DNA from: Sodaliphilus pleomorphus
GTDB lineage: Bacteria > Bacteroidota > Bacteroidia > Bacteroidales > Muribaculaceae
Assembly (NCBI RefSeq): GCF_009676955.1
Contig: NZ_CP045696.1
Span: forward strand, 2,053,001 to 2,117,000
Length of the DNA: 64,000 nt
Direction of reading: 5' to 3'
Below, piece after piece: positions 5,111-61,875 of this stretch; position 1 is the stretch's first letter, and each line of letters opens with the position of its first letter. A program made the position numbers and the translations under genes. The notes under the pieces were generated by a model that did no database searches, was not told the origin of the DNA, and was given only the letters and a program-made list of their open reading frames with translations.

Positions 5111-5158
5111 TAGTCAATGTGTTTTTTTTCCTTTTTTAAGGTAAACCTTGGCCACTCC

Positions 5159-30517: not shown

Positions 30518-30524
30518 AAAAGCG

Positions 30525-31337
30525 ATGATCGACAGCCACTCGCACATCTACAGCGCCGAGTTTGACGCCGACCGCGACCAGGTAGTGCGCCGGGCCCGGG
30601 AGGCTGGTGTGACCCACGTGATACTGCCCAACGAGAACCTGGCGAGCCTGGAGCGCCTTGCTGCCATGCACGAGCGCTGGCCGGGCTATGTGTCGATGAC
30701 CATAGGCCTGCACCCCGAGGAGATAGGCCCCGACTATGAGCACGAGCTCGAGGCAATGCACCGCAAGCTACTGGCTGCCGCCGCCTGCCGCTATGTGGCC
30801 GTGGGCGAGATAGGCATTGACCTGTACTGGGACGCCTCTCGCCGCGACGAGCAGATGCAGGCGCTCGACACGCAGCTGCACTGGTGCAAGGAGGCTGGCA
30901 TCCCCTTCATCATGCACTGCCGCAAGGGCCTCGACGAGTGCCTGGCCGTGCTCGACAACTTCGGCGAGCCGCTGCCCCGCGGCGTGTTTCACAGCTTCAC
31001 CGGCACGGCGGCCCAGGTCGAGGCTGTGCGGCGGCGCGGCGACTTTTACTTTGGCGTCAATGGCATTGTCACGTTCAAGAAGAGCGATGTGCCAGCCCTG
31101 CTGCCCGTGATAGGCCTCGAGCGCATCTTGCTGGAGACCGACTCACCCTATCTGGCCCCTGTGCCCAAACGCGGCACGCGCAACGAGAGCTGCAATATTC
31201 CTCTTGTGGCGGCCTGTGTGGCGCGGCACCTGGGAGTGAGTGTCGACGAGGTGGAGCGCGCGACCGATGCCGGCGTCCGCGATTTGTTTTTCAATCGCCG
31301 CGAGGTGCCGCATTACGCTGGCGGCCACGACGATTGA
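30525..31337 (+). CDS. TatD-family metal-dependent hydrolase
   Basis: A 270-residue TatD-type protein. It starts MIDSHSHIY, giving the metal-binding HxH, and has GEIGIDLYWD, FIMHCRKG, GVFHSFTG and LLETDSPYLAP. TatD proteins are metal-dependent nucleases with roles in DNA repair. The ATG is 7 bases after the polyprenyl synthase stop, so the genes are coupled. A frame extending upstream overlaps that gene and is not used. Confidence 0.92.
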   Translation: MIDSHSHIYSAEFDADRDQVVRRAREAGVTHVILPNENLASLERLAAMHERWPGYVSMTIGLHPEEIGPDYEHELEAMHRKLLAAAACRYVAVGEIGIDLYWDASRRDEQMQALDTQLHWCKEAGIPFIMHCRKGLDECLAVLDNFGEPLPRGVFHSFTGTAAQVEAVRRRGDFYFGVNGIVTFKKSDVPALLPVIGLERILLETDSPYLAPVPKRGTRNESCNIPLVAACVARHLGVSVDEVERATDAGVRDLFFNRREVPHYAGGHDD

Positions 31338-31371
31338 CTTTAATTGATTGAAAAGTATATACACACACACT

Positions 31372-32451
31372 ATGGTAAAAGTGAATGATATCGTGCGCTT
31401 CCTCAACGATGTGGGAGGCGGCACAGTGACCCGTGTCGACGGCGGCACGGTATATGTGGAAGATGAAGACGGCTTTGAGCGCCCTGTGCCCAGCCGCGAG
31501 GTTGTGGTCGTGGACCAGGCCCAGGCCAAGCCCAGTGTCTATGAGCGCCCCATCGAGGTCAAGAGCAAGCTCGTGGAGCCCGATGTGCCTGCCGCGCGAC
31601 CCAAGAGCGAGGCGCCTGCCGCGCCTGTGGTTGAGACCGAGGAGGGCAACAAACTCAACATCGTGCTGGCCTTTGAGCCCCGCGAAATCAAGCATCTCAA
31701 CACCACCACCTTCTACAGCGTGCTGGTAAACGACAGCAACTACTTCCTGAGCGTGGCCTACATGAGCCGTGCCGATGGCGACGACGCCTGGCACACACGC
31801 TACACCGGCCTGGTGGAGCCCAACATGCAGGTCGACCTCGACGAGTTTGGCTACAACGACCTCAACGACCTCGAGCACGTGGCGCTCGAGTATATCGCCT
31901 TCAAGCAGGACAAGGGCTTCAAACTGAAAAACCCGGCTCTGGTCGAGCTGCGTGTCGACGCCACCAAGTTCTACAAGCTGCACAGCTTCCACGCCACCGA
32001 GTATTTCGACGACCCGGTCATCCAGCTCGACATCACGCGCAACGACATGCCTGCCCGACCCCTGCGCATCGACAGTAGCGCCCTGGAGCGCGCCATGCGA
32101 CAGAAGCGTGGTGCCGACGAGCGCCCCCGTTCGCGCCAGGTGCAGCACCACGAGCACAAGAAGGGCGACATCGTCGTGCAAGACCTGCACATTGCCGAGC
32201 TGCTCGACAACATCAACGGCCTGTCGAGTGCCGACATGCTCAACTACCAACTCGACAAGTTTCGCGAGGTGATGCGTGCCCACCAGAACCAGCCCGGGCA
32301 GAAGATCGTGTTTATTCACGGCAAGGGCGAGGGTGTGTTGCGCCATGCCATCCTCGACGAGCTCAAGCGCAAGTGGCCGCGCTGCACCGCTCAGGACGCC
32401 AGCTTCCAGGAGTACGGCTTCGGGGCTACCCAAGTCACGATACACCGGTAG
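31372..32451 (+). CDS. DUF2027 protein with C-terminal Smr domain
   Basis: A 359-residue Bacteroidetes-specific protein. The N-terminal part opens VKVNDIVRFL and is a small beta domain, followed by a DUF2027 region. The last 80 residues form an Smr domain with the conserved HGKGEGVLR segment (after VFIHG). Smr domains can bind or nick DNA or RNA, as in MutS2, so a nucleic-acid role is possible. The start MVKVND is preferred over an ATG eight codons upstream. Confidence 0.88.
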   Translation: MVKVNDIVRFLNDVGGGTVTRVDGGTVYVEDEDGFERPVPSREVVVVDQAQAKPSVYERPIEVKSKLVEPDVPAARPKSEAPAAPVVETEEGNKLNIVLAFEPREIKHLNTTTFYSVLVNDSNYFLSVAYMSRADGDDAWHTRYTGLVEPNMQVDLDEFGYNDLNDLEHVALEYIAFKQDKGFKLKNPALVELRVDATKFYKLHSFHATEYFDDPVIQLDITRNDMPARPLRIDSSALERAMRQKRGADERPRSRQVQHHEHKKGDIVVQDLHIAELLDNINGLSSADMLNYQLDKFREVMRAHQNQPGQKIVFIHGKGEGVLRHAILDELKRKWPRCTAQDASFQEYGFGATQVTIHR

Positions 32452-32498
32452 GGCAGGGTAGCAGCAGTGATGTTTTTTTGTCGTTTATAATATAGATT

Positions 32499-33269
32499 AT
32501 GATATTTTATTTCACAGGCACAGGCAATAGCGGCCATGTGGCCAGCGAGTTGGGCACCAAGCTCAACGACCGCCTCGTGCCCATGGGCGCCGCCCTGGTC
32601 GAGGGCAACACCTGCTATGAGCTGAAGCCCGGCGAGCGTGTGGGCTTCGTTTTTCCCACCTACTGCTGGGGCGTGCCTCCTGTGGTGGCCGATTTCATCG
32701 CCCGGCTCGACTTGCAAGGCTATCGCAGCGAGTGCAACTTTGTGTACATGGTCGCCACCTGCGGCGACGATGTGGGTCAGCTTGTCGACATGATGCGCCG
32801 CTTGCTTGCCCGCAGGCAGCTTGAGCTGCAGGCCGCCTACAGCGTGTCGATGCCCAACACCTACGTCAACATGCGGGGCTTCGACGTCGACCCCGACCTG
32901 GTGCGCGACGCCAAGCTGCATGCTGCCGAGGGGCGCATTGCCGAGCTGGCTCAAAGCATTGCCGAGGGCCGCGTCACTACCGACGTGTGCCGGGGCTCGT
33001 GGCCCTGGCTCAAGACCCGCGTGGTGTATCCCTGGTTCAGGCGCCATGCCATGAGCGACAAGAAGTTTCACGTCGAGCCTGGCCGTTGCACCCATTGCGG
33101 GGCCTGCGTGAAGAATTGCCCCCTGGGCAACATCACGCTCAACGCCCAGGGCGAGCCCCAGTGGCACGGCCGTTGCACTATGTGCGAGAGTTGCCTGCAC
33201 CGCTGCCCGGCCCGTGCCATCCAGTACGGCAAGGCCACCCAGGGCAAAGGCCGCTACTATTTCAAGTAG
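32499..33269 (+). CDS. EFR1-family ferredoxin (flavodoxin-like plus two 4Fe-4S clusters)
   Basis: A 256-residue protein. The N-terminal half is flavodoxin-like, opening FYFTGTGNSG to bind the FMN phosphate. The C-terminal part has two complete 4Fe-4S motifs, CTHCGACVKNC (197-207) and CTMCESCLHRC (226-236). It should move electrons in the cytoplasm; partners are unknown. A hairpin follows the gene. Confidence 0.92.
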   Translation: MIFYFTGTGNSGHVASELGTKLNDRLVPMGAALVEGNTCYELKPGERVGFVFPTYCWGVPPVVADFIARLDLQGYRSECNFVYMVATCGDDVGQLVDMMRRLLARRQLELQAAYSVSMPNTYVNMRGFDVDPDLVRDAKLHAAEGRIAELAQSIAEGRVTTDVCRGSWPWLKTRVVYPWFRRHAMSDKKFHVEPGRCTHCGACVKNCPLGNITLNAQGEPQWHGRCTMCESCLHRCPARAIQYGKATQGKGRYYFK

Positions 33270-33290
33270 AGTATTTACTGTAAAGACACT

Positions 33291-33333
33291 TTTCACCCCC
33301 TGCCGCGCTCACTTGGGGCAGCAGGGGGTGAAA
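33291..33333. terminator. Bidirectional hairpin between the ferredoxin and Spy-like genes
   Basis: TTTCACCCCCTGC (33291-33303) pairs perfectly with GCAGGGGGTGAAA (33321-33333) over 13 base pairs. The A/T ends of the stem can act as a short U-run in both directions. Confidence 0.75.
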
Positions 33334-33361
33334 TGTGTCGTGGTGTAGAGGGGTGCAGCGG

Positions 33362-33865
33362 CTACTTGGTGTTGCACTGCCCTGTGCCTGTGTGATTGGC
33401 GCCGAGCCTTCCTTGCCGTCGGCCGCACTGGCGGCCTTTCTTCTGGCCCAGGCGTTTCATCATGCCGCGCTCGAGCTCGTAGACGCGTGCTATCTGCTTC
33501 TGGGTGAGGAAGCGGCTGTACTGCTTGTAGTACTTCTCGCGCAGGGCCAGTATCTTCTGGCTGCGCTCAAAGCGGCTGTTGATGGCCTGCTGGGCATCGG
33601 CATCGGTTGTGTATTTTCCCTTGCCCCTCATGTGCGGTTTTATGGCCCACATCTCCTTCTGCGCGTTGCAGTAGGTGGCGACAAACTGGGCTGCCGTCTG
33701 GTCGTCGAGGGCCAGCTGGCGGGCGATGTAGTGTGCTTGTGCCTCGGCCAGCTGTTCGCGGCTCTTCTTCTGCTGCTGCTGTTGCGAGGCGTTTTGTGCG
33801 CTGGCCGAGAGACCCAGCAGTGCGGTCATGAGCACGGTGAGTGCAATTTTCAGGATATTCTTCAT
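33362..33865 (-). CDS. Spy/CpxP-like periplasmic protein
   Basis: A 167-residue protein with a signal peptide (cut after SASAQ), a Gln-rich linker and a helical body with KILALREKYYKQYSRFLTQ and QIARVYELE. The layout resembles small periplasmic stress proteins such as Spy and CpxP, though the LTxxQ pattern is only partly present. It is the last gene of the sigma/anti-sigma run, 32 bases after the anti-sigma gene, which fits an envelope-stress role. The last 20 residues are basic and look disordered. Confidence 0.65.
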   Translation of the reverse strand: MKNILKIALTVLMTALLGLSASAQNASQQQQQKKSREQLAEAQAHYIARQLALDDQTAAQFVATYCNAQKEMWAIKPHMRGKGKYTTDADAQQAINSRFERSQKILALREKYYKQYSRFLTQKQIARVYELERGMMKRLGQKKGRQCGRRQGRLGANHTGTGQCNTK

Positions 33866-33897
33866 TGTGTTGTTTCCTTTCTTTGTGTTACTTGTTG

Positions 33898-34257
33898 CTA
33901 TTGATTGAGAAACGGGTCGTCTTGATAGGCATCTACGAGAAATTGCTGGTCGGCGGCATCGAGGTTGTCGAAGGCCTGCTCCACCTGGCCATAGGTGCCT
34001 GCCGGCGCGGTTTGCCTGCCAGCGAAGCGGGGCACGAGGAGCAGAATTGCGATTGCCGCGGCTGCCACTGCCGAGAGGGGCACCAGGCGTCTGAACCAGG
34101 TGCTGTGCAGCACTCTGGCTTTGGCCTGCCGGGGCTGTGCGGGCGTGCTTGCCTGCACCTCGTGCATCACGCGCTCCTCGAGTTGCTGGAAGAAATCCTG
34201 GGGCACCTCATAGGGCATGCGCTTGCCCACCTTGTTGAAATCGAATTGCTCTTTCAT
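33898..34257 (-). CDS. Putative anti-sigma factor, single membrane span
   Basis: A 119-residue protein. The cytoplasmic N-terminal part (1-55) opens MKEQFDFNKVGKRMPYEVPQ and leads to one membrane helix (about 59-75, LVPLSAVAAAAIAILLLV) and a short acidic periplasmic tail. This topology and its position 9 bases after an ECF sigma gene indicate an anti-sigma factor, although no zinc-binding motif is present. Confidence 0.7.
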   Translation of the reverse strand: MKEQFDFNKVGKRMPYEVPQDFFQQLEERVMHEVQASTPAQPRQAKARVLHSTWFRRLVPLSAVAAAAIAILLLVPRFAGRQTAPAGTYGQVEQAFDNLDAADQQFLVDAYQDDPFLNQ

Positions 34258-34266
34258 GATGACGTC

Positions 34267-34812
34267 TCAATCGTGTTGGTTCATATATTGCGTTATTTTC
34301 TCTTTGGCCACGTGGTAGTTGGCCTTGGCTGCCGCCGCAGTCGAGCCTGTGACCTCGGCAATCTCGGCATAGGAAAGCTCGTCGTAGTACCTGAGGTTGA
34401 ACGTGACTTGCTGCTTGGCCGGCAACGTGTGTATGGCTTGCTGCAGCTTCACGGCGATGGTGTCGCTGCTGTCGAGCCACTGGTCGGGGGCCGCGAGCGA
34501 GAGCACCTGGGCGGTAGCCTCGTCGAGCGACACTGTGGCTCTGCCGGCGCGCCGTGCCAGCAGCCGCAGTGCCTCGCGGGTGGCGATGGTGAACACCCAA
34601 GCCGTGAGTGAGCGCTTGGCGTCGTACTGGTCGAACGACTTGTATATCCTCACCAGGGCCTCCTGGGTGGCGTCTTCGGCATCGTCGTGACTGCCCACCA
34701 GGCGGCGTGTGTGCCAGTACATGGGCTGCATGTAGGCAGCCACGAGCAGCTTGAAGCCCTGCTGGGGATTCTTGCGCATGGCCTCTACTATTTTCTGGTC
34801 GTTGGGTGTCAT
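34267..34812 (-). CDS. ECF-type RNA polymerase sigma factor
   Basis: A 181-residue sigma-70 family factor with region 2 (HDDAEDATQEALVRIYKS, then SLTAWVFTIATREALR) and region 4 (LPAKQQVTFNLRYYDELSYAEIAEV). It should direct polymerase to a stress or surface regulon. It is followed by the putative anti-sigma factor and a Spy-like protein in the same direction. A small secreted-protein gene lies 34 bases upstream. Confidence 0.92.
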   Translation of the reverse strand: MTPNDQKIVEAMRKNPQQGFKLLVAAYMQPMYWHTRRLVGSHDDAEDATQEALVRIYKSFDQYDAKRSLTAWVFTIATREALRLLARRAGRATVSLDEATAQVLSLAAPDQWLDSSDTIAVKLQQAIHTLPAKQQVTFNLRYYDELSYAEIAEVTGSTAAAAKANYHVAKEKITQYMNQHD

Positions 34813-34846
34813 GACGATGGCTGTGGCTCTTTTGCGGGGTAGTGTG

Positions 34847-35101
34847 CTACCGGCCCGTGACGGGCTTGACGGCCACGGTGCGGCCGTTCACTTTTTTCAC
34901 TACGACGGTCTTGCCGCCTTTCTTTTTTATCACGATGGTCTGGACTCGGCAGGGAGCCTTTCTCGCTGGCACGACTCGCACTGGTGGTGCCGGAGGACGG
35001 TGGCAGTAGTGGCGCTGGTGCGGGTGTGCTGCGGCCATGCAGCTTGTGGCCAGCAGCAACGTGGCCAGCACGATGCCTTTGATTGCTTTGTTTGCCTTCA
35101 T
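34847..35101 (-). CDS. Small basic secreted protein
   Basis: An 84-residue protein with a signal sequence (LATLLLATSCMAAAH; a lipobox at TSC is possible) and a short, very basic mature part with His/Pro-rich and VVVKKVNGR segments. No family recognised. It lies 34 bases upstream of the ECF sigma gene and may be the first gene of that transcript. Confidence 0.55.
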   Translation of the reverse strand: MKANKAIKGIVLATLLLATSCMAAAHPHQRHYCHRPPAPPVRVVPARKAPCRVQTIVIKKKGGKTVVVKKVNGRTVAVKPVTGR

Positions 35102-35265
35102 TGTTTGTCTGTTTTTGAGTGTTTCACATTGTGTGGCGATTCAGTCGTGAGCTCACCGGCTGTGTCGCGCTTTCTACAATCAATACCCGCCTGGTGGACA
35201 AAAGTAAAACTGTGAAGGCAAAAAAAAGCGCGTGTTGATAAAAAATTTTCCCCCCTCCTCCTGTC

Positions 35266-36177
35266 TCAGTTCTCGCGGTAGGCCTTGGGGGTCATGCCGG
35301 TGAGTTTCTTGAAAAAGCGGGAGAAGTGCTGCGGGTACTGAAATCCCAGCTGGTCGGCCACTTGCGTGATGCTTTGGCTCTGGTCGAGCAGCATCTGCTT
35401 GCTCAGAGCCAGAATGTGCTGCTGGATGTAGAGCTTGGCCGAGAGGCCGGTCTCCTTGCGTATCATGTCGCCGAAGTAGCCGGGCGAGAGGCAAGCCTTG
35501 TCGGCAAAGTAGGCCACCGAGGGCAGCCCGCTTTGCATGGCTGTGCCCTGCTCGAAGTAGTCCTTGATGTTGCGCTCAAAGGCGGCCAGTGTGTCGCTGT
35601 TCTCCTTGTGGCGGGTGATGAACTGGCGGTCGTAGAAGCGCTGGCAGTAGTCGAGTATGAGCTTGATGCGGTCGGTGAGTATCGTCTGCGAGTGCTTGTC
35701 GACGGGCATTTCCATCTCCTGCGCTATCGAGTGCAGCGTGTCGGTTATCAGGGCGCGCTCGCGCTCGCTCAAGTGGAGCGACTCGGCCGAGTCGTAGTCG
35801 AAGAAGTGGTAGGTGGTGATGGCCTTGCCCAGCGGGGTTCCGGCCAGAAGATCGGGGTGGAAAAGCAGTCCCAGGGTGTGAATGGGCGTGCTCAGCTGCT
35901 CGTCGGTCATGTCGACACGCACCACCTGTCCCGGGGCGAAGCTCACGATGGTGCCCTCCTGGTAGTCGTAGGTGCGGCGGCCGTAGTGCAACGTGCATTG
36001 CAGCCCGTTTTTGAGCCACAGGGCATACACATCGTAGCGGAATGTCGCGTGGTTGACTTGGTGCTTGGCTTGTGCCAGGTCGACCACGCTCACCAGCGGG
36101 TGCAGGGTCTCAAAGCCATAGAGCTTGTTGTAGGCGTCGATGTTGTCGATCGCTATCAAGTTGCAGGAGTCGTTCAT
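35266..36177 (-). CDS. AraC-family transcriptional regulator
   Basis: A 303-residue regulator. The N-terminal part (about 20-170) is a cupin-like ligand domain with a FAPGQVVRVD strand. The C-terminal part (about 200-303) has two helix-turn-helix units: FADKACLSPGYFGDMIRKE and VADQLGFQYPQHFSRFFKK, ending TGMTPKAYREN. The target genes and ligand are unknown. It stands alone between the sigma-factor run and the accessory block. Confidence 0.92.
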   Translation of the reverse strand: MNDSCNLIAIDNIDAYNKLYGFETLHPLVSVVDLAQAKHQVNHATFRYDVYALWLKNGLQCTLHYGRRTYDYQEGTIVSFAPGQVVRVDMTDEQLSTPIHTLGLLFHPDLLAGTPLGKAITTYHFFDYDSAESLHLSERERALITDTLHSIAQEMEMPVDKHSQTILTDRIKLILDYCQRFYDRQFITRHKENSDTLAAFERNIKDYFEQGTAMQSGLPSVAYFADKACLSPGYFGDMIRKETGLSAKLYIQQHILALSKQMLLDQSQSITQVADQLGFQYPQHFSRFFKKLTGMTPKAYREN

Positions 36178-36285
36178 TGTGTGTCGATTTTCTTGTGTTG
36201 TTGCTTTGGTTGCAAAGCTATCTCATTTTCTTGGCTTGTGCAACTGGCGGGCCACTTTTTCCACAATCGGGGGCACAGCTTCCTC

Positions 36286-36296
36286 AATCGGGGTAG
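36286..36296. repeat. Left copy of an 11-base direct repeat flanking the accessory block
   Basis: AATCGGGGTAG occurs here and again at 39800-39810, on either side of the low-GC block with the HNH and methyltransferase genes. A shorter AATCGGGG also occurs at about 36264. It may be a target duplication or recombination scar. Confidence 0.35.
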
Positions 36297-36340
36297 CTGC
36301 CAGGCTGCCACCGCATGAATTTCACAAATCTTCCCCATGT

Positions 36341-36760
36341 TCAGTCAAAGTTTACATCATATTTTATATTTTTATAATCTTTCTCACGCAACCACTGCCA
36401 AAAGGTAATGTCTTTGTCTGTCGCATGTATTTGGCGCAGGTTCTTGTGCAGCACCTCTGACAGGGACATTGCATATATGCCTTCTGTGTGGTGCGTGCCA
36501 TCGGAATCGACACTAATAGGTCTACCAAACTGGTATTCATTGTAGCACACGCGCATTAGGAAGAGCTTGAGGTCGTTGTCTTTTTCTGAGAGAATGAGGT
36601 CGCCTTGCGTCGTCCATTTATCCTCTTCCTTGCGCTGCATGTTGTCGAAGAAGATTCTCTCATTTTCTGACACGTAGTGGCCTTTCATCGAGTTGAACAG
36701 CTCTATGTCCTCTTGTGGCATAGTCTCATTGGCTATGTCGTCAATGTTTTGATTTTCCAT
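36341..36760 (-). CDS. Unknown small acidic cytoplasmic protein
   Basis: A 139-residue protein without signal peptide or membrane segment. It is rich in Asp, Glu and Asn and uses AT-rich codons unlike the backbone. Features seen are ENERIFFDNMQRKEEDKW in the middle and a DITFWQWLREKDYKN end. No family recognised. It lies inside the accessory block downstream of the DUF262-HNH gene but is separated from it by a terminator and 337 bases, in which no other gene is supported. Confidence 0.6.
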   Translation of the reverse strand: MENQNIDDIANETMPQEDIELFNSMKGHYVSENERIFFDNMQRKEEDKWTTQGDLILSEKDNDLKLFLMRVCYNEYQFGRPISVDSDGTHHTEGIYAMSLSEVLHKNLRQIHATDKDITFWQWLREKDYKNIKYDVNFD

Positions 36761-37050
36761 ATTTTCTTAAATTTTGATTTTTTGACGTGTAATATTTAAC
36801 AGGTACTCTCGGATTAAAATCCAGCGGGAATCCATATACGAGAAGGTTGAGCGGATGTTTCTCTTCGACAAGCCGTTCAATGGCCAATCTGGTAATAAGT
36901 TTGTCCTCTTTATGTTTCCCTATTACCGCATTGCTTATTGCGACATTACTGTGTTGCGGTATTCCGAGAAGAAGGTAAATAGATCTTATTTAGAAACAAA
37001 TATAGAAAAAAATTGTGATTATGGCAAGGCGGTTCACCAACAATAAAATC

Positions 37051-37088
37051 AAACATGCCACACATTCATTGAAATGTGTGGCATGTTT
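37051..37088 (-). terminator. Strong terminator after the DUF262-HNH gene
   Basis: A perfect 16-base-pair stem (37051-37066 with 37073-37088) closes a 6-base loop, 9 bases past the stop codon. On the minus strand it continues TTTGATTTTATT, a fair U-run. It is one of the longest perfect hairpins in the window. Confidence 0.88.
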
Positions 37089-37097
37089 GGGTAGCTA

Positions 37098-38258
37098 TTA
37101 TCGATTCCCTTTCGCCCTGTTGTGCGTCTTGCAAAGCATCTGACAGTTGCTTATGTCGGTGCTTCCGCCCCGGCTCCATGCCGTTACATGGTCGGCATCC
37201 ATCTCGGTGAGCTTCCAGATACGGCTGTGGTTAGGGCCGGAGCTCATGGCACAGTAGGGGCAGTTGGAGATGCCTTTTGCCTTTGCCTCCGCCGTCTGCC
37301 GCTCATACACGGTCTTGATGGTATGCTTGTCAAAGAGCCGAATATTGAGCAGCTTCGGGTCGGTGCAGCCGCCGAGGACGTACTCGAAGATGCCGCGCTT
37401 GTCGTTCACGGCATCGTCCTGCATCAGCTCAGAGACCCGGCGGTCAACCTCGTCGGGGTTGTAGGGCGTGTTGTGGTACTTCTCATAGAGCGTGCCCCAC
37501 GGCAGTCCTTTCTGCTCGCTGTGGGGCGTTGGGAAGGTGGCACTCACCCAGTCGATGACGCTGTCGAAACAGGTGGTTACGGGCGTTATATCCGCGTCCT
37601 GGCGGTGCGCGGCCATATAGCCCTCAGTGTCGCCGTGGCTCGCCCAGTCGAGGGCTGTGGCGAGCACCTCCTGGCGCTTAGGATCGCCCTTCACGTAGGT
37701 GCCCCACTTCTGCTGCATCGGGTTCAGGGAGTTGCTGTAGACAGCCTTCAGCGCGGTGACAAACGGACCGCTGTAGATGGCGTTGTACATCTCCTGGTTG
37801 TTGAGCGGCACGCCGGCGATGTTGATTATCTTGAACCATTTCTTTATCTCCTCTTCCGTGCCCTCGCAGATGTAGATTGTCAGAGGGGTATCGGAGAACA
37901 GCTGCTGCAGCTCCGCGTTGAGCGAGTAATACTTCTGCTCGCGCCCGTCATAGCGCACCGTGAGCTTGTTGGTGAGGAAGCGGCCGAGGGAAGTGATGCG
38001 CTGCTGTCCGTCGAGCACCTCAAGCTGCCCGTCGGGACGGCGGTTAAGGTAGATAAGGCCCAGTGGATAGCCGTGCAGCACCGAGTCGATGACCGCCACG
38101 TCCTTGCGCCCGTCGTTGTAGATGTAGTTGCGCTGGTACTCCGGCTGGATTATCAGCTGTCCGTTCATGCCGAAGAGTCCCTTGCCCTCCTGCTCGTTGT
38201 AGACGAATCCCTTGCAGATGTCGCCGATGGTGATGTCGGTATGCAGTTCTGTATTCAT
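37098..38258 (-). CDS. DUF262 (ParB/GmrS-like) protein with C-terminal HNH nuclease
   Basis: A 386-residue two-domain protein. The N-terminal DUF262 domain has the PEYQRNYIY box and DGQQR (83-87), the nucleotide-dependent motif seen in GmrS, SspE and other defence proteins. The C-terminal domain (about 330-386) is an HNH nuclease: CPYC, DADHVTAWSRGG, then NCQMLCKTHNRAKGN. Such fusions cut foreign DNA, often sensing base modification. It follows the EcoRI-family methyltransferase gene in the same direction after a 174-base gap and probably forms a two-gene system with it. Codon use is AT-shifted relative to the backbone. Confidence 0.88.
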   Translation of the reverse strand: MNTELHTDITIGDICKGFVYNEQEGKGLFGMNGQLIIQPEYQRNYIYNDGRKDVAVIDSVLHGYPLGLIYLNRRPDGQLEVLDGQQRITSLGRFLTNKLTVRYDGREQKYYSLNAELQQLFSDTPLTIYICEGTEEEIKKWFKIINIAGVPLNNQEMYNAIYSGPFVTALKAVYSNSLNPMQQKWGTYVKGDPKRQEVLATALDWASHGDTEGYMAAHRQDADITPVTTCFDSVIDWVSATFPTPHSEQKGLPWGTLYEKYHNTPYNPDEVDRRVSELMQDDAVNDKRGIFEYVLGGCTDPKLLNIRLFDKHTIKTVYERQTAEAKAKGISNCPYCAMSSGPNHSRIWKLTEMDADHVTAWSRGGSTDISNCQMLCKTHNRAKGNR

Positions 38259-38307
38259 AAATTTTTCGTTTTTTATTTCTCTGACTAATGAATGATGTTT
38301 TTCTACG

Positions 38308-38341
38308 TAGCGTTCAATCCTTCGCTGCTTAGCGTTTAATC
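38308..38341. repeat. Pair of 12-base direct repeats between methyltransferase and HNH genes
   Basis: TAGCGTTCAATC (38308-38319) and TAGCGTTTAATC (38330-38341) differ at one base and are spaced 22 bases apart. They lie upstream of the HNH start, where an operator would act. Confidence 0.4.
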
Positions 38342-38401
38342 TTTTTCTATAGCATTACAACATCGGGAGAGGCCTTTTCGCCCCTTGATTGTTGGCTTTT
38401 C

Positions 38402-38442
38402 ACCCCATGAGAACGGCGTTCTAACCCCATGATTAGGGCGTT
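38402..38442. repeat. Pair of 19-base imperfect direct repeats at the end of the methyltransferase gene
   Basis: ACCCCATGAGAACGGCGTT (38402-38420) and ACCCCATGATTAGGGCGTT (38424-38442) match at 16 of 19 positions and again have a 22-base period. The second copy covers the methyltransferase stop codon. Confidence 0.4.
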
Positions 38443-39560
38443 GTGATCTTCTGAATGAGGATGCGTGCATAAGTGGATTTAAGCTCGCCATCAACCATTA
38501 TCGCACCACGACGGTTCAAATCGCCAAAGTGCGGAGTATCTTCGGGGGTATATTCCCTTGTCTTAATGCCGTATTCATTACCACGGTCGGTAATTCCTAA
38601 CAATCGGAACTGCTCCGGGCAATACTTGTCGAGGAAGGAGATGGGCACGCCCATCGGGCCAGTGTAGTCGGAGGGTATGGCATCGGTATAAGGCACCTCT
38701 ATGGCATCATAGTTGTCGTAGTGCTGGTACTCCTTCCGCAGGCGCAAGTCCTTGTGCCGGCTGAACTTCAGGTTGTCCGCCATCGTCATCAATGGCAACG
38801 GCTCGTGGCGCTTGCCCAATTCTATGTTGGTAAACCAACAGCAGTTGCGGAACTTCACAAGCCCGTCATCCTGCAGCACTCCTTCGCCATACTTCTGAGC
38901 GTTAGGTGTGGCAAAGAAGGCATTGCCCGCAGTAAAGCCGTTGCCCAGCCAAATCTTATTGTCCTTGAGCAGCGGAAACACCTCCTTGTAGGTTATCGCG
39001 TTCATGTTGCCGATGACGGAGAACCGTTTGCCACCGTCGATGATCCATTTCAGGAACTCGCGGAAGAGGGAGAACGGCGGATTGGTGATGATGAAGTCGG
39101 CCTCGTTACGCAACTGCGTAATCTCACGCGAGCGGAAGTCGCCGTCGCCGTCAAGGTACTCCCAGCGGAGGTCGTCGATGTCGATGCGGTTGTCGCCATT
39201 GATATCACGGTCGAGAACGAAGATACGCCCGTGGGTTTGCCACTTGTCGCGGTCGAACTTCGGGTCCTGCTCGTCCCCGGGGAAAAGTGAGGGCATTACC
39301 CCGTACTTTGCCGCCTTTGCGTCAGGAGCGTAGCTCGTGGAGATGAGCTTTTTGATACCAAACAATTGGAAGTTAAGGGCGAAATATCGTGTAAAATTGC
39401 TCCATTCCGGGTCGTCGCACGGCATGAGTATCGTCTTGTCGCGGAACACGTCGGGGTCGTAGTCCACATACGCCTGCATCTCATGCTCAATGTCGGGCAG
39501 CTGTGTGTAGAACTCATCGTTCTTGGCTGTTTTCGCGTTTCCTAAGTTTTTATTTGCCAT
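38433..39560 (-). CDS. EcoRI-family adenine-specific DNA methyltransferase
   Basis: A 375-residue protein of the EcoRI methyltransferase family, which puts a methyl group on adenine N6 in DNA using S-adenosylmethionine. The N-terminal AKNDEFYTQLPDIE and ILMPCDDPEWSNF are family hallmarks; the catalytic motif is NPPF (160-163). A loop DINGDNRIDIDD (119-130) looks like an EF-hand/dockerin calcium site, followed by DGDGDFRS. The neighbouring downstream gene is a DUF262-HNH nuclease instead of an EcoRI-type enzyme. Three operator-like repeats lie upstream of its start. Confidence 0.9.
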   Translation of the reverse strand: MANKNLGNAKTAKNDEFYTQLPDIEHEMQAYVDYDPDVFRDKTILMPCDDPEWSNFTRYFALNFQLFGIKKLISTSYAPDAKAAKYGVMPSLFPGDEQDPKFDRDKWQTHGRIFVLDRDINGDNRIDIDDLRWEYLDGDGDFRSREITQLRNEADFIITNPPFSLFREFLKWIIDGGKRFSVIGNMNAITYKEVFPLLKDNKIWLGNGFTAGNAFFATPNAQKYGEGVLQDDGLVKFRNCCWFTNIELGKRHEPLPLMTMADNLKFSRHKDLRLRKEYQHYDNYDAIEVPYTDAIPSDYTGPMGVPISFLDKYCPEQFRLLGITDRGNEYGIKTREYTPEDTPHFGDLNRRGAIMVDGELKSTYARILIQKITTP

Positions 39561-39590
39561 CTACCAAGTTATTTAGTTCATAACCATATT

Positions 39591-39638
39591 GTGATATTTT
39601 TCGTCGTGATATTTTTCACAAATATAGTGATATTCCTG
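39591..39638. repeat. Iterated operator-like repeats upstream of the methyltransferase gene
   Basis: GTGATATTTTTC occurs twice exactly (39591-39602 and 39606-39617, 15-base period), with a partial third copy GTGATATT at 39627-39634. They flank the candidate -7 box at 39619-39626, so a protein bound there could block transcription. The methyltransferase itself or an unlinked controller might bind. Confidence 0.6.
39619..39626 (-). promoter_or_regulatory. -7 box for the methyltransferase gene
   Basis: On the minus strand TATATTTG fits TAnnTTTG and lies 59 bases upstream of the start codon. The -33 element is weak. The rest of the 390-base gap up to 39950 holds the repeats described, the right direct repeat and a terminator, with no supported gene. 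Confidence 0.6.
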
Positions 39639-39799
39639 TTGCAAGAAAAATCTATTTTGCCTTTACTGCAAATTTCCTGAAAAGTTGACAAAAATGGAGT
39701 AAATCGGAAATGGAAAAATTGCTTAGTCCTTTGTTTGTAAATCTTTATCGATTGTTGTGATGTAATAAGGACGCCCTGGCTTGAGGTAGGATCTGTTTT

Positions 39800-39810
39800 A
39801 ATCGGGGTAG
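39800..39810. repeat. Right copy of the 11-base direct repeat flanking the accessory block
   Basis: AATCGGGGTAG, identical to 36286-36296 and in the same orientation. Bases beyond the 11 do not match, so it is short for an attachment site. Confidence 0.35.
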
Positions 39811-39874
39811 TGGCGGCATGGCAAGCATCTTCAGGCGCAGCTTGTAGCGCACACTTCCACAAGAGAAACACTGG

Positions 39875-39902
39875 GGGCAGGCGACTCACGGGTCGCCTGC
39901 CC
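39875..39902 (-). terminator. Terminator after the 39951 gene
   Basis: GGGCAGGCGAC (39875-39885) pairs with GTCGCCTGCCC (39892-39902) around a 6-base loop, 48 bases past the stop of the minus-strand gene at 39951. The U-run is poor. Confidence 0.6.
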
Positions 39903-39950
39903 TCAGCTCGATTGGTGTGCCTTGTATGGCTCGTTTTTCCCCTAAGGGCA

Positions 39951-40550
39951 CTACTCGGGCATCTCGTCCCAGTGAATGGGCACGTTGTTGAGCACGAGCA
40001 GCCCGGTGTCGTCGTAGCTGGTGCTTATGCCCAGTTGCAGCTGCTTGATGGTGGTGGCCGTCTTCTTGACGTCGGCAAACTCGTTGGTCTCCTTCAGCTG
40101 CACTTTCATGTATACGCCCTCGGTCACGTCGTAGGTGTACCACCCTGTGCCCACTTTCATCTTGTAGGCATTGTCGTCCTGGTCGACCATGATGGCCGGA
40201 TAGCTGCTGTTGCCGCCCAGGCGCAGCTGGGTGAGATTGGCGATCATTTTCACTTTAAACACCAGGGTCACCACGCCATAGTTGGTCGAGGTGCTTTTGC
40301 CATAGGCTCCCACGAGCTGCACGTCGACAATCGAGGCGAGCGGGTTGCGCAGTGTGCCGCCGCCCTCGACTGCTGTGACGGTGCCTTTCTTGCCGGCCGC
40401 CTGGGCAGTTGCAGCCACGGCTGTCTTGCTCTCGGTGGTGAGTATTTGTTTTGCTTTTTTGATGAGGCCTCCCAGGCCCTGGGCGCTTGCTGGTGCCGCT
40501 GCCAGGCTGAGCATGGCGCAGACGGCGATTGCGATACGGTTGAGTTTCAT
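39951..40550 (-). CDS. Secreted protein of unknown function
   Basis: A 199-residue protein with a signal peptide (cut near ASAQG). The mature part starts with a helix (GLGGLIKKAKQIL) and is then mainly beta (VVTLVFKVKMIAN, YPAIMVDQDDNAYKM, VYMKVQLKE). No known family recognised. It lies 30 bases downstream of the lipoprotein gene at 40581 and the two share features (both describe a predicted beta domain with VVTLVF/ITLKLN strands), so they may work together. Confidence 0.7.
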   Translation of the reverse strand: MKLNRIAIAVCAMLSLAAAPASAQGLGGLIKKAKQILTTESKTAVAATAQAAGKKGTVTAVEGGGTLRNPLASIVDVQLVGAYGKSTSTNYGVVTLVFKVKMIANLTQLRLGGNSSYPAIMVDQDDNAYKMKVGTGWYTYDVTEGVYMKVQLKETNEFADVKKTATTIKQLQLGISTSYDDTGLLVLNNVPIHWDEMPE

Positions 40551-40580
40551 GTCTTGATGATGTTTGTGTGTGATAAAGTT

Positions 40581-41276
40581 TTATTTCTTGGGTTCTTTGG
40601 CCTTGGCCTGCTTGTCGGCTTGCTCGGCCTCCTTGCACAGCGAGGAGTTGCTGTTGGCAATGGTGATCGACTTCATGCTGGCCATCTTCTCGGCCTCCCA
40701 GGGTTCGATGCTCAGGTTGAGTTTTAGCGTGATGCTGTCGCCCTTCTTCACCACCGTGTTGCCTATGGCCCCAGGATGGAGCGCGATAATGCCGCGGGGG
40801 TGGAAGGCGTTGCCCTCGGCGTCGGTCACCACATAGCGCAGCTCATAGAAGCGCATGGCGCCTTTGCCGGGCACGTGTCCCCAGTCGTCGAGCAGCACGG
40901 CAGCGGTCTCCATCCTCACAGTGCCCCCTGACGTGACGGTGGTCACGGTGAGCGGTTGCGAGAGTTGCAGCGGCACGTCTTGGGCCACGTGGGCTGGCAC
41001 TTGCTTGCCCGTGAGCAGCTGGCCGACTTGGGCAATTTTATCCTTGATTTCCTTTTGCTTTGCAGCCCACTGGGTGAGCTGCTCTTTCATTTTAGACTCA
41101 TCGTCTTTGGCCTGGTACAGGCCGCTCTTCAGGCTCTCTTCGGCCTCCTCTTGCTCGATGACCAGGCCGGGGAGCTCTCCCAGCGGCCCGCTGGCGGGCA
41201 CGTGCTTGCTCTCGCACGCCACGAGTGCGGCCAGGGCCAGTAGCCACACCGTTGTAGTAGTAAGGGTTGTTTTCAT
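40581..41276 (-). CDS. Lipoprotein with coiled-coil N-terminus
   Basis: A 231-residue lipoprotein (lipobox LVAC, Cys21). A helical segment with high coiled-coil character follows (about 40-95, EEAEESLKSGLYQ, KMKEQLTQWAAKQKEIKDK), then a beta domain with MRFYELRYVV and DSITLKLNLS. No family recognised. The start MKTTLTTTT gives a normal signal; a 31-codon upstream extension does not. Confidence 0.7.
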   Translation of the reverse strand: MKTTLTTTTVWLLALAALVACESKHVPASGPLGELPGLVIEQEEAEESLKSGLYQAKDDESKMKEQLTQWAAKQKEIKDKIAQVGQLLTGKQVPAHVAQDVPLQLSQPLTVTTVTSGGTVRMETAAVLLDDWGHVPGKGAMRFYELRYVVTDAEGNAFHPRGIIALHPGAIGNTVVKKGDSITLKLNLSIEPWEAEKMASMKSITIANSNSSLCKEAEQADKQAKAKEPKK

Positions 41277-41421
41277 GCTGTTTTGGTAGTATAATTTTGG
41301 GTGAGTAAGTGCGAGTGTCGTGTTGCGGTTGCAAAAGTAAAAGCCGTAGCCACTCACCCGCAAGAGCAAGTGGTCAATTGTATCGGTTGGAACTCAGTTT
41401 TTTATCGATTGACGCGTCGAT

Positions 41422-42495
41422 TTACCGATTGACGCCTGCCGCCCGGCAGCAGGCAGGGGTCGTGCCCGTAGCTTTCTTGAAATAGCGTCTGAAGCTGCTC
41501 AGCGAGTTGAACCCCGACTGGCTGGCAACATCCTCAAGCGGTAGCGTGGTGGTGGCCAGCAGTTGGCGGGCGTGTTTCACCCGCCAGCCGTTCACATACT
41601 CGTAGAAGCTCGTGTGCAGCTCCTGGTTCAGGTAGTTGGACAGGTAGGTGCGGTTGGTGCCCAGTTCCTGTGCCAGCCCGTTGATGTTGAGGGTGGGGTT
41701 GAGGTAGATGCGGCCGTGCTCAAAGGTGTCGTGCAGGGCCTGGGCAAAGTGGTAGCTGTCCTGCCGCCCTCCCGCCGGCTTGGGAGCAAGTGTGCCGGTC
41801 GTGGGCTCGCCCGCGCCGCGGCCGAGGGCCTCGAGCATGTCGTCCTGGCGGTACACAAAGTAGCACAGCAGGGCAAAGATGACCGAGCACACCATGTTGT
41901 AGACGGCGGCTGTGACGTTGCTGTCGACCTTGGTGGCGACAAACCACGTTGCGGCCAGTGCCAGGTAGAAGAGCAGCAACAGCCAAGTCCACCTGAGCGA
42001 CAAGTGCTCGTCGGTCGAGAAGCAGGCCGCCAGTTGCTGGTTGAAGCGCCGCACGGCCACAAAGCCGTAGATCACGATGCCCGCCGAGTGGAGCAGTGCG
42101 GCAGCGAGGATGCAGTCGTACACCACGGGCGAGCCGCTCGTCATGTACACGGCCAGCGCCACCCAGTAGGGCGCCAGGTTCAGTGTGGCCGCCAGGGGCT
42201 TCATGCCGTGGGTGTGGGTGAGCCGGTAGAGCAGCATCAGGGCCAGTGGCACCACCGTGACCTGCATGATGTTGGTCACAGGCTTGAGCATCGCGCCCAA
42301 GAAGTTGTCGATGAAGAACAGGTAAAACTCCACCATGCTTATGCCCAGCAGGTAGAGCATGAAGTAGAAGGCCGAGCGCTGCAACTGGTGGTGCCGCCCC
42401 TTGGCATAGAGTGCTGCGGTGCCCAGCAGCTGAAACATAAAGAAGAGACCGCATGAGAAATCTCGCAGCCGTGAGGTGAAGTCGGGGTCGATCAT
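41422..42495 (-). CDS. Membrane-anchored AraC-family regulator
   Basis: A 357-residue protein. The N-terminal half has about six to seven membrane helices (for example FYFMLYLLGISMVEFYLFFI and LLLLFYLALAATWFV). The C-terminal part (about 255-350) is an AraC DNA-binding domain: INGLAQELGTNRTYLSNYLN and VASQSGFNSLSSFRRYFKKATGTTP. Regulators of this layout are frequent in Bacteroidetes and sense envelope or external signals. The start MIDPDF is preferred to an ATG 35 codons upstream, which adds Cys-rich sequence from the opposite gene's control region. It is divergent from the GHL10 gene at 42686 and may control it. Confidence 0.88.
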   Translation of the reverse strand: MIDPDFTSRLRDFSCGLFFMFQLLGTAALYAKGRHHQLQRSAFYFMLYLLGISMVEFYLFFIDNFLGAMLKPVTNIMQVTVVPLALMLLYRLTHTHGMKPLAATLNLAPYWVALAVYMTSGSPVVYDCILAAALLHSAGIVIYGFVAVRRFNQQLAACFSTDEHLSLRWTWLLLLFYLALAATWFVATKVDSNVTAAVYNMVCSVIFALLCYFVYRQDDMLEALGRGAGEPTTGTLAPKPAGGRQDSYHFAQALHDTFEHGRIYLNPTLNINGLAQELGTNRTYLSNYLNQELHTSFYEYVNGWRVKHARQLLATTTLPLEDVASQSGFNSLSSFRRYFKKATGTTPACCRAAGVNR

Positions 42496-42660
42496 TGTCG
42501 TTTTCTTGGTGCGTTTAGATAGCAAAGATACAAAAAAGTCTTCGGCTCCGCAACACGTGTCTTCACCCTGTGCCGCGCATCGCGCTGCCCCCAGGGGCAT
42601 TCTCGTCGAGGGAGGGGGCTTATTCCTGAGTCAGTGTAAACGGGTTTCTGCTTTTTTTTG

Positions 42661-42668
42661 TAATTTTG
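42661..42668 (+). promoter_or_regulatory. -7 box before the second GHL10 gene
   Basis: TAATTTTG fits TAnnTTTG, 18 bases before the first ATG, so the leader is short. A T-run precedes it and no clean TTTG lies at 19 to 20 bases. Confidence 0.5.
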
Positions 42669-42685
42669 CATCTCAATATGTTGAG

Positions 42686-44191
42686 ATGATGAAGAAATAC
42701 ATCCTTTATATCGTGTTGTGCCTGGCTCTGGCATCAGGGCTGCAGGCACAACCCTATACCACGCCCAAGCGCGAGCTGCGCGCGGCGTGGGTGTCGACCG
42801 TGTATGGCATCGACTGGCCCAACGCCGGTGCCAGCCCTGCCCGGCAGCGGGCGGCTCTCACGCGCATCGTCGACTCGCTGGCCCGCAACAACTTCAACGC
42901 CGTGTGCTTCCAGGTGCGCTCGATGAGCGACGCCATGTATAGGTCGGCCTATGAGCCGTGGTCGAGCTACCTCACGGGCACCCGCGGCAAGGATCCGGGC
43001 TACGACCCGCTGGCCTACTGCGTGAGCGAGTGCCACCGCCTGGGCTTGGAGTGCTGGGCGTGGATCAATCCCTACCGCTTCTCGACGGGAGCCTTGTGGA
43101 GCACCAGCCAGGACATGGAGGCGAGGCAGCACCTGCTCTCGTGGGGCAAGAAGAAAATACTCGACCCTGCCCAGCAGTGGACCGTCGACCGCATCGTCGA
43201 CGTGTGCCGTGATGTGGTGAAGCACTACGACATCGACGGGGTGATCTATGACGACTATTTCTACCCCGACAACATCCCCACAACCAGCGCTGCCGGCGAC
43301 TATGGCGAGTGGAAGGCCTCGGGCACGCAGCTCAGCCTGGCCGACTGGCGGCGGGCCAACGTGAACCGCATGGTCAAGGCCGTGTACCAGATGATACAGA
43401 CCGAGAAGCCCTATGTGCGCTTCGGCATCTCGCCAGCCGGGGTGGCCTGCACCGATGCCGACCTGGCCGCCCGCTACGGCATCGACCCCTGTCCCAGCGG
43501 CAGCGACTGGCAGTATGGCACCATCTTCAGCGACCCGGTGTCGTGGCTCAAGGAGCACGATCTCGACTTTGTGTCGCCCCAGGTGTATTGGAAACGCGGC
43601 TTCAAGCGGGCCGACTTCTCGCTCATTGCCCCGTGGTGGTGCAAGGTGGCTCCCACGATGGGCCGCCAGGTCTACATCTCGTCGAGCATCGAGCGGCTGG
43701 CACTGGCGAGCGAGTTCCCTGAGTATGCCGCCCAAGTGCAGCTCACGCGCGACAGCAGCCCCGAGGGCGCGGGTGGCACCATCTTCTGGTCGGTGACCAA
43801 CCTGTACCGCCGCTCCGGCCTCGCCCGGCAACTGTGCAGCTACCTGCGCAGCACCGTCTACCGCTATCCGGCCCTGCTGCCCCAGCTGCCGTGGCGCAAC
43901 CACAAGGCCGCCCGCGAGCTCAAGGTCGAGACCCCCGTGCGGGGCAACGGCCAGCTGCTGTGGCACCCGGTCGAGGGGGTGCGCTACACCGTCTATGCCG
44001 TGCCTGCAGGCGTGAGCGAGAGCCAGTGGCAGGGCCAGGTTCAGTACTTGCTGGGCATGGCCTACAACCCCGACGATGCTGCCGACGATGTGGTCTACGA
44101 CCTGCCGCGCGACAAGCAGCAGGGCTACAAGTGGGCCGTGTGCGTGCTCGACCGCTACGGCAACGAGTACGCCCCCGTGTGGGTGCATTGA
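42686..44191 (+). CDS. GHL10-type glycoside hydrolase (short form)
   Basis: A 501-residue secreted protein. A signal peptide (MMKKYILYIVLCLALASG, cut after LQAQ) is followed by a GHL10 barrel with KRELRAAWVSTVYGIDWP, VCFQVRSMSDAMY, LDPAQQWTVDRIV, DIDGVIYDDYFYP and FVSPQVYWKRG. One fibronectin-like module ends it; unlike the paralogue at 13991 there is no dockerin-like tail. By analogy with DigH it may cut denuded peptidoglycan strands. Confidence 0.9.
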   Translation: MMKKYILYIVLCLALASGLQAQPYTTPKRELRAAWVSTVYGIDWPNAGASPARQRAALTRIVDSLARNNFNAVCFQVRSMSDAMYRSAYEPWSSYLTGTRGKDPGYDPLAYCVSECHRLGLECWAWINPYRFSTGALWSTSQDMEARQHLLSWGKKKILDPAQQWTVDRIVDVCRDVVKHYDIDGVIYDDYFYPDNIPTTSAAGDYGEWKASGTQLSLADWRRANVNRMVKAVYQMIQTEKPYVRFGISPAGVACTDADLAARYGIDPCPSGSDWQYGTIFSDPVSWLKEHDLDFVSPQVYWKRGFKRADFSLIAPWWCKVAPTMGRQVYISSSIERLALASEFPEYAAQVQLTRDSSPEGAGGTIFWSVTNLYRRSGLARQLCSYLRSTVYRYPALLPQLPWRNHKAARELKVETPVRGNGQLLWHPVEGVRYTVYAVPAGVSESQWQGQVQYLLGMAYNPDDAADDVVYDLPRDKQQGYKWAVCVLDRYGNEYAPVWVH

Positions 44192-44321
44192 TGCGCCAGT
44201 GGGCCACGGGGCATACAATAATTGAGCTACTGTCGCGTTTTTTCTATGAGTCGCGGGCGGCACAGCCGCTGCCGCGTGCCACCCTCGCCCAGGAGGCTGG
44301 CAGCAATCGAGTTGACAACCG

Positions 44322-61484: not shown

Positions 61485-61821
61485 CTTCTTCTTGTTGTGT
61501 TGTAAAAATGTGCAGTTTTTCTTTCCGGCCTCGGCCCCTGGGCTGCACACAGCCAGCCCGAGACCCAAACCAAAATGCGAATTTACAAATAATTTTCCTT
61601 ACTCCCGCAACACTTCCCCCATTTTCTTTCTCACTCACGGCACCTCGCGTCCCAAACCTGAATAATTCATACTGTATTAAGACAGTGCCTCGTTTCTATA
61701 CAAACGAAGCTGTTGGTGATAACCGGACGGTTGGAGTATGAATGACTTTTATCGTTATTACAGAGGTGGTGAACTTTTGTTATTAAATTTGCTCTTAAAA
61801 GTAAATTCATTGCCATAAAGT
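61485..61821. other. Gene-free stretch at the edge of the right-hand accessory block
   Basis: GC falls sharply here compared with the WG-repeat gene. No supported gene, hairpin with U-run or tRNA was seen. The first 80 bases hold the control region of the WG-repeat gene; the last part leads into the promoter at 61822. Confidence 0.5.
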
Positions 61822-61852
61822 TTTGATATTTAATATATAATCTTTATCTTTG
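61822..61852 (+). promoter_or_regulatory. Consensus promoter for the AbiE-like operon
   Basis: TTTG (61822-61825), a 19-base spacer and TATCTTTG (61845-61852) match the Bacteroidetes promoter exactly. It lies 23 bases before the start at 61876. One transcript would cover the three overlapping genes. Confidence 0.8.
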
Positions 61853-61875
61853 CACAAAATCATTGATGTGTGATT

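Follow-up and report, generated by a model that had tools for sequence, protein, structure and literature searches.

An EcoRI-family adenine methyltransferase with exchangeable segments and its near-constant DUF262-HNH partner, a candidate restriction-modification system

The nuclease of the EcoRI restriction-modification system has a PD-(D/E)XK fold. It reads GAATTC itself, in another way than its companion methyltransferase M.EcoRI (PMC4081073), and the two enzymes of Type II systems are described as independent, each reading the site (PMC13076061, PMC4081073). Here we analyse a two-gene locus in 64,000 nucleotides (nt) of Sodaliphilus pleomorphus DNA (contig NZ_CP045696.1, positions 2,053,001 to 2,117,000 of the forward strand), which we call the window and to whose first letter our coordinates refer. 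Its first gene encodes a methyltransferase (M) of the same family as M.EcoRI, with a PF13651 match over the full length. Unlike in the EcoRI system, the partner of M is a DUF262-HNH protein (R), which does not vary with the variable segments of M. Across related loci two such segments, V1 and V2, are swapped as modules while R stays constant, and some relatives carry dedicated devices for switching V2.

DUF262 domains are found in several defence systems. In the Type IV enzymes GmrSD and BrxU, which are described as cutting modified-cytosine DNA on their own, the domain is joined to a DUF1524 nuclease. R shares with them a DUF262 (GmrSD_N) domain bearing the motifs QR, DGQQR and FxxxN, followed by a nuclease of the His-Me-finger type. 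Unlike them it has 386 residues, a PF01844 HNH domain and a fixed methyltransferase partner, and this tie to M argues against partner-free Type IV action by R. The SspABCD-SspE system likewise has a DUF262 effector coupled to a modification system, in published outlines one with a phosphorothioate mark, several modification proteins and a DUF1524 nickase; in contrast, the partner found beside R is a methyltransferase. DUF262 effectors that sense modification are therefore not new (PMC10952713), and SspE is described as growth-arresting without its modification system (PMC10952713, on DUF262 effectors).

Type III systems consist of two genes, mod and res, whose products form a hetero-oligomer, and mod is often described as phase-variable. 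Mod holds the variable recognition part, and Res, a helicase-nuclease, needs Mod. If V1 and V2 set specificity, the M-R pair would, by its sequence variation only, fit the Type III trait of specificity in the modification subunit beside a constant restriction subunit. Unlike in Type III, Res is replaced by a small DUF262-HNH protein in which the Pfam families are GmrSD_N and HNH only, with no helicase domain, and M is an EcoRI-family enzyme. Recognition domains of hsdS recombine in Type I systems (PMC13076061), and in Helicobacter Type IIG enzymes, in which nuclease and methylase form one chain, a frameshift switches specificity (PMC3936762). In both, as proposed for M-R, the recognition domain changes and the nuclease part stays. 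Type I systems, however, have a separate specificity subunit, whereas in M-R the switch lies within the methyltransferase and the nuclease is a separate protein; some M-R loci have three open frames, each with its own end. We found no description of an EcoRI-family methyltransferase with exchangeable modules next to a constant DUF262-HNH protein, in a search that fell short of most subscription papers, preprints and REBASE. Two papers on DUF262 proteins (PMC7785942, PMC7848895) have, in the text available from them, a subject other than this pair.

The pair, its active-site residues and its distribution

The open reading frames, the Pfam matches and an 18-pair stem behind R agree with a sequence-only reading of this DNA, which had described an EcoRI-type methyltransferase followed by a DUF262-HNH protein and a strong terminator. 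The parts of the two genes are as follows.

38433-39560, minus strand: M, EcoRI-family N6-adenine DNA methyltransferase, 375 residues (open reading frame and PF13651)
39072-39083, minus strand: catalytic motif NPPF of M, residues 160-163 (coordinates derived from the open reading frame)
38835-38939, minus strand: V1, hypervariable segment of M, residues 208-242, proposed exchangeable target-recognition module (locus alignment)
38472-38588, minus strand: V2, hypervariable segment of M, about residues 325-363, proposed exchangeable target-recognition module (locus alignment)
38259-38432, minus strand: spacer between M and R, 174 nt
37098-38258, minus strand: R, DUF262 (GmrSD_N)-HNH protein, 386 residues, predicted nuclease gated by nucleoside triphosphate (NTP) (PF03235 and PF01844)
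37773-38174, minus strand: DUF262/GmrSD_N domain of R, residues 29-162, with QR at 42-43, DGQQR at 83-87 and FxxxN at 142-146
37101-37262, minus strand: C-terminal HNH domain of R, residues 333-386, with D356 H357, N371 and N380

PF13651 (EcoRI_methylase) covers residues 5-371 of M at 405 bits, against a cut-off of 26.4. On R, PF03235 (GmrSD_N) scores 74.2 bits (cut-off 33.2) over residues 29-162 and PF01844 (HNH) 35 bits over residues 333-386; DUF1524, the nuclease of GmrSD and BrxU, is absent from the Pfam matches listed for R at an expectation value (E) of up to 1, and the C-terminus is the PF01844 HNH. The PADLOC profiles MTase_II (PDLC03297) and REase_II (PDLC03418) match M nearly over its full length (E 3.9e-83) and residues 20-385 of R (E 8.1e-86).

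Conservation was counted over 146 aligned M-R pairs, and the NPPF, DGQQR and HNH motifs that had been read as intact from the window are invariant or nearly so. The four residues of NPPF are kept in 146, 144, 146 and 146 pairs. In R, Q42 R43, D83-R87 (DGQQR) and N146 are present in all 146 and F142 in 145; the HNH residues D356 H357 and N371 are likewise present in all and N380 in 142, and the likely zinc ligands vary more (C336 in 140, C376 in 142, H379 in 126). For the catalytic residues of R and the zinc ligands C333/C336/C376/H379 we presume the roles that they have in HNH enzymes. QR, DGQQR and FxxxN are described as DUF262 motifs, with DGQQR as the nucleotide site (PMC11411939, PMC4619093). 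Because these nucleotide-site motifs are strictly conserved, R is likely to be NTP-dependent, and the use of nucleotides proposed for it from the window was a fair reading.

By its distribution the M-R pair is a widespread unit and no local accident. A scan of GTDB contigs with R gave 122 relatives, of which we kept 80, at 58-64% identity; the loci are a non-random sample, most of them chosen by a good R match. Their record titles name Bacteroidales, Clostridia, Treponema, Fibrobacter, Alphaproteobacteria, Gammaproteobacteria, Bifidobacteriaceae and candidate phyla. Upstream of R, 78 of the 80 loci have M, whole or in part, and in the two exceptions (loci L018 and L056) the contig ends after 161 and 125 nt. 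Six of the 78 have only a short piece, which lies at a contig end in five (L034, L049, L050, L069, L076) and is broken in one (L009). In a sample of 395 genomes of the phylum, 20 have M, and R (E<=1e-30) occurs in 16 of these and in no others; the genomes with M and no R are G149, G323, G327 and G247, the last with an M remnant only. These two counts (78/80 and 16/16) bear out the earlier view that the two genes form one unit. Plasmid records matched in 204 cases, and in the 24 fetched M is complete beside R in 20, in pieces in three (L269, L291, L293), and missing beside a truncated R in L276. The sequence-only reading had named the absence of the two genes together elsewhere as grounds for giving it up; from the 78/80 loci and the 16/16 R genomes, they recur together widely.

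M and R share a strand in all of 95 loci measured for spacing, among which the window's own counts twice (L001, L087). The genes overlap or abut in 39, lie at most 30 nt apart in 36, at most 300 nt apart in 11 and wider apart in nine, some of these with intervening genes; an overlap of 4 nt is the most frequent layout (29/95). Genes stand between M and R at 3127-3978 in L190 (a Bro-N protein) and at 2469-3320 in L191, and there are gaps in L053, L068 and L073.

Within the window's genus the pair is patchy, with a full-length R match in 10 of 25 genomes, the window's own included. A protein search with R found at least 8000 matches at E<=1e-3, and the 120 listed are 61-95% identical. The pair is also found in a Flavobacterium phage, and this presence on plasmids and phages, with the PADLOC profile matches, makes up the signs of a putative role in defence. 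On plasmids the pair is annotated as 'adenine-specific methyltransferase EcoRI family protein' and 'DUF262 domain-containing protein'. Four large Enterococcus faecium plasmids of different origin (L085, L270-L272) hold it under identical protein accessions, one of them beside optrA and erm(A). Pseudarthrobacter psychrotolerans YJ56 has two such pairs, carried by two plasmids.

Exchanged segments, switching devices and broken genes

V1 and V2 emerged from an alignment of 103 loci, of which the 85 closer ones served to measure conservation: M has two hypervariable stretches (V1 around 208-242, V2 at 325-363) flanked by conserved parts. All loci were then pooled, 185 giving 150 unique M-R pairs; heavily broken or cut genes were left out and L025, with a stop near the start of M, was kept. 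Across the 150 pairs the alignment of R contains no hypervariable segment.

Among the 37 comparisons in which R is at least 95% identical, identity is 0.88 in the M core and averages 0.36 in V1 and 0.16 in V2; V1 or V2 falls below 0.35 in 34 of them and both do in 27, with both above 0.7 in three. Where R is 90-95% identical (67 comparisons), V1 or V2 is below 0.35 in 65 and both are in 55, and both are kept in two. Such comparisons are not independent, so we also counted clusters joined at R identity of at least 90%: 10 of 12 hold more than one V1/V2 combination, for example 10 combinations in 12 loci and 10 in 10. In windows of 20 residues over pairs with R at least 90% identical, V1 and V2 drop to 0.16-0.23, and the minimum in R is 0.83. 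On these alignments V1 and V2 are swapped as modules while R stays constant.

The DNA of L190 and L191 gives a close view of such a swap. It is mostly 95-100% identical over the 5' part of M, R and the flanks, and dips to 0.43-0.57 in V1 and to 0.33-0.52 in V2 and the stretch behind it, with 0.88-0.90 in between; the R proteins differ at one of 390 residues. In the window's own genus, L089 and L090 have R at 0.91 and core at 0.88, with V1 at 0.28 and V2 at 0.03. Between the isolates Prevotella oulorum JCM 14966 and Bacteroidales bacterium KA00344, identity is 88% in R and 89% in the core, against 21% in V1 and 4% in V2.

The modules also recur. Grouping at 60% divides the 150 pairs into 44 V1 types, 104 V2 types and 133 combinations, and among the 85 loci, M cores less than 0.75 identical share V1 at above 0.7 in 78 pairs and V2 in 41. 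Distance correlations with permutation p-values over 127 loci gave 0.396 (p 0.0005) for R and M core, 0.037 (p 0.09) for R and V1, 0.020 (p 0.15) for V1 and V2, and 0.012 (p 0.36) for core and V1.

Four kinds of V2-switching device occur in relatives. In the inversion type, L164, L190 and L191 each have, between M and R, two V2 cassettes that point the opposite way and open with an inverted copy of the part of M that precedes V2; the best inverted arms are 18, 22 and 25 nt long and 91-100% complementary. As read from the translations, the three V2 types of L164 are also those of L191 (cassette identities 73-85%), and the two loci express different ones; one of the three types is like the V2 of the window. 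A tyrosine recombinase gene starts about 50 nt past R in L164, L190 and L191 and in L184, where M is cut off, and matches PF00589 in L190 and L191. Restricted to relatives of this enzyme, a survey of the 152 R loci that have 1 kb or more of downstream sequence found four distinct cases, the L191 record being counted again as L288. An annotated tyrosine recombinase also adjoins R at the plasmid locus L297. Close relatives of the cassette recombinase occur on the viral contigs L280 and L281 (85% and 74%), with no M or R within the fetched stretch, and may shuffle something else there.

The second kind is a repeat tract inside one V2 type: ACAG x12 in L055, GACA x3 in L052 and GA x6 in L167, with GACA x14 running to the contig end in L069, where the V2 type is the same and the body of M lies outside the contig. 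Past the tract, the DNA of L052, L055 and L069 is open in three frames with three different tails; in L167 two frames give different tails and the third, currently used, stops. The third kind is a run of G just before V2, carried by M genes in genomes of two families, which at nine (G9) is in frame in three M genes and at ten (G10) leaves two out of frame, R being intact in all five. In L236 a G9 and one of two G8 runs are in frame and the second G8 is out of frame, so that across genes the frame is not a matter of poly-G length alone. The fourth kind is several M genes per R, as at L163, L186 and L297 (two each) and at L236, which has three: two nearly alike in V1 but different in V2, and one out of frame. 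Two loci (L243 and L244, at G437:C121 and G437:C21) are isolated C-terminal pieces of M at contig edges; where a genome has many copies, its assembly seems to break off within M, and more cassettes may be hidden there.

Five loci (L009, L025, L126, L132, L293) combine an intact R with an M that is broken or out of frame. Some of these may be assembly errors; L293 is a finished plasmid. The reverse, an intact M with a broken R, is found in four (L054, L114, L123, L238); L025 and L123 have their stop close to the gene start. Both counts omit L269 and L291, in which both genes are broken, and L276, and the M of L205, being one open frame, is outside the count of broken M genes. M without an adjoining R occurs in G149, G323 and G327 and at one locus each in G255 and G437. 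We looked here for a one-sided Type II pattern of lone M and broken R; at four loci versus five there is no asymmetry.

How R may find its target

Replacement of V1 and V2 beside a constant R, together with intact R genes beside broken M genes, suggests that the target of R most likely comes from M. Our reading, with moderate confidence, is that M supplies the specificity of R, and that the two most likely act as a complex in which cleavage by the HNH domain is NTP-gated. M would use V1 and V2 to choose a short DNA site and methylate adenine there on host DNA. R would be a general effector, active only together with its own M, whose DUF262 domain binds and hydrolyses nucleotide and so gates the C-terminal HNH nuclease. 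M on an unmethylated site would recruit or license R to cut, probably as an M-R complex. Lacking a site of its own, R would make a swap, inversion or frameshift of V1 or V2 non-lethal, and mark and restriction would change together upon a V1/V2 change. The dependence of R on M, the complex, the gating and phage as the target are what we infer from these comparisons.

An ordinary Type II system, in which R is an HNH endonuclease reading one fixed short site that M protects, would accord with the near full-length PADLOC matches to REase_II and MTase_II, and lone M genes and intact M beside broken R would be expected if M is harmless alone. It appears improbable to us, since replacing or flipping the recognition parts of M would expose the chromosome to such a fixed-site R. 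V1 or V2 is replaced in 34 of the 37 comparisons with R at least 95% identical, R has no hypervariable segment to follow them, single R genes stand beside inverting, frame-switching or multiple M genes, and the five loci with intact R and a broken or out-of-frame M should be lethal. The sequence-only reading had proposed a restriction-modification variant in two forms. Coupling of R to M, through a complex or through the mark, fits these results; an R that independently cuts its own unmodified site sits badly with R staying over 95% identical while V1 and V2 are replaced, and with the switching devices on some M genes. Less probable again is that V1 and V2 are exposed loops that vary to escape phage inhibitors or host proteases while specificity is constant. 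The role of V1 and V2 is proposed from sequence, and switches could serve escape too; against this, M proteins of dissimilar background share distinct module types that are conserved within themselves, the assortment of V1 and V2 is nearly independent, as it is for recognition domains, and recombination and frameshift devices are described as serving specificity in Type I and Type IIG systems.

A closer competitor, which we regard as possible if doubtful, resembles SspE. M would write N6-methyladenine (m6A) at a site set by V1 and V2, and R, unbound to M, would sense m6A in any context through its DUF262 domain, the mark switching its NTPase and HNH activities so that unmarked foreign DNA is cut. 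The swaps and switches fit this equally well, and DGQQR is invariant in R. Other m6A enzymes are common in bacteria, and for mark sensing any of them would do; yet M of one family is kept in 16/16 R genomes and at 78/80 loci. That all 16 R genomes hold M favours this particular M over any m6A enzyme, and because R keeps to one methyltransferase family we favour the complex over mark sensing. The DUF262 relatives GmrSD, BrxU and SspE are described as sensing modified DNA, and the NTPase of SspE as triggered by its phosphorothioate mark (PMC10952713, PMC11411939); the nuclease of R, however, is a plain PF01844 HNH and not the DUF1524 of those three.

Several observations weigh against an R guided by M. 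Dedicated V2 switching devices are found in a minority of related loci, and no silent V2 cassette was detected on either strand of 30001-46000 of the window, the M-R spacer included. The loci are mostly metagenome assemblies, whose tract lengths and frameshifts may be assembly errors. Among the distance correlations, that of R with V2 is small and non-zero (0.073, p 0.007), and that of M core with V2 reaches 0.166 (p 0.0005). As a control from ordinary Type II systems, the DpnII family PF04556 was found in 14 of 395 genomes, two of them strongly, and one DpnII-family protein had no relative in viral contigs, so that there is no same-method control; the swap argument compares R, M core, V1 and V2 within the same loci. 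Databases already model M and R as predicted Type II enzymes. That V1 and V2 are target-recognition parts is suggested by their modularity and switching, not by structure: profile searches of solved structures gave for M only a dehydrogenase (E 0.14) and for R the DUF262 protein 7p9k, which we take to be BrxU, at E 0.46 over 24 residues. With the sequences alone, M matched no solved structure and R three chains titled 'Surface protein' (E 0.5-0.7). A profile match of R to a lysozyme-titled chain (E 0.0003) consisted of three stretches of less than 9 bits each and was rejected as a composition match.

On balance we lean towards regarding the M-R pair as another type of restriction-modification, so far unclassified. 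It would be a minimal system of two proteins and about 760 residues, in which two independently exchangeable recognition modules of M would program a constant nucleotide-gated DUF262-HNH nuclease, and which some lineages would rewrite by a recombinase cassette shuffle or a three-frame repeat switch. If so, a common pair filed as Type II runs on another logic, with the methyltransferase as guide and the nuclease as fixed effector, and the annotation of such systems would need correcting. The pair would then explain how two segments of 35-40 residues set a methylation motif, and show how a DUF262 protein links its use of nucleotides to a guide. It would also provide a small cutter that is retargeted by swapping two segments in its partner. 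Cassette shuffles would change both the methylation patterns and the phages that are blocked, reversibly within a population.

Surroundings of the window locus

The window copy is one fixed V1/V2 combination of the M-R family, with no switching device nearby and no long repeat tract in its M. Its V1 type (60% single linkage) recurs in 15 others of the 150 pairs. Its V2, taken with flank and tail, is 65% identical by BLAST to the expressed V2 of L164 and by eye resembles a silent inverted cassette of L191; under the stricter 60% column clustering it is alone in its type. Three further features lie around the genes.

37050-37089, minus strand: intrinsic terminator 3' of R, with an 18-pair stem, a 4-nt loop and a T-rich tail
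36286-36296, plus strand: AATCGGGGTAG, left copy of a direct repeat of 11 bp that borders the low-GC block
39800-39810, plus strand: right copy of the 11-bp direct repeat AATCGGGGTAG

The terminator stem is the longest among seven terminator-like sites listed, where shuffled sequences have 4.9 sites on average. The low-GC block noted by the sequence-only reading is evident, with a GC fraction of 0.502 in 36286-39810 against 0.602 in 30000-36285 and 0.616 in 39811-46000, and the limits given in that reading, 36286 and 39810, are exactly the outer ends of the AATCGGGGTAG copies. The repeat has no other copy in the 64 kb with up to one mismatch; with one mismatch permitted, 14 of 100 shuffles had at least two matches. 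The pair of repeats around the block is possibly the scar of an insertion. Past the terminator of R lies a third low-GC open reading frame (36341-36760, minus strand, 139 residues, GC 0.436). Neither a family match at E<=0.05 nor, among the 80 related loci, a tblastn match at E<=1e-5 was found for it. The protein of the open reading frame at 39951-40550 has no match in the other 40 genomes of the genus. Elsewhere the window is mostly about 60% GC, with further low-GC stretches at 5001-8000 (0.39-0.44) and 61001-64000 (0.39-0.50) that are possibly other acquired islands.

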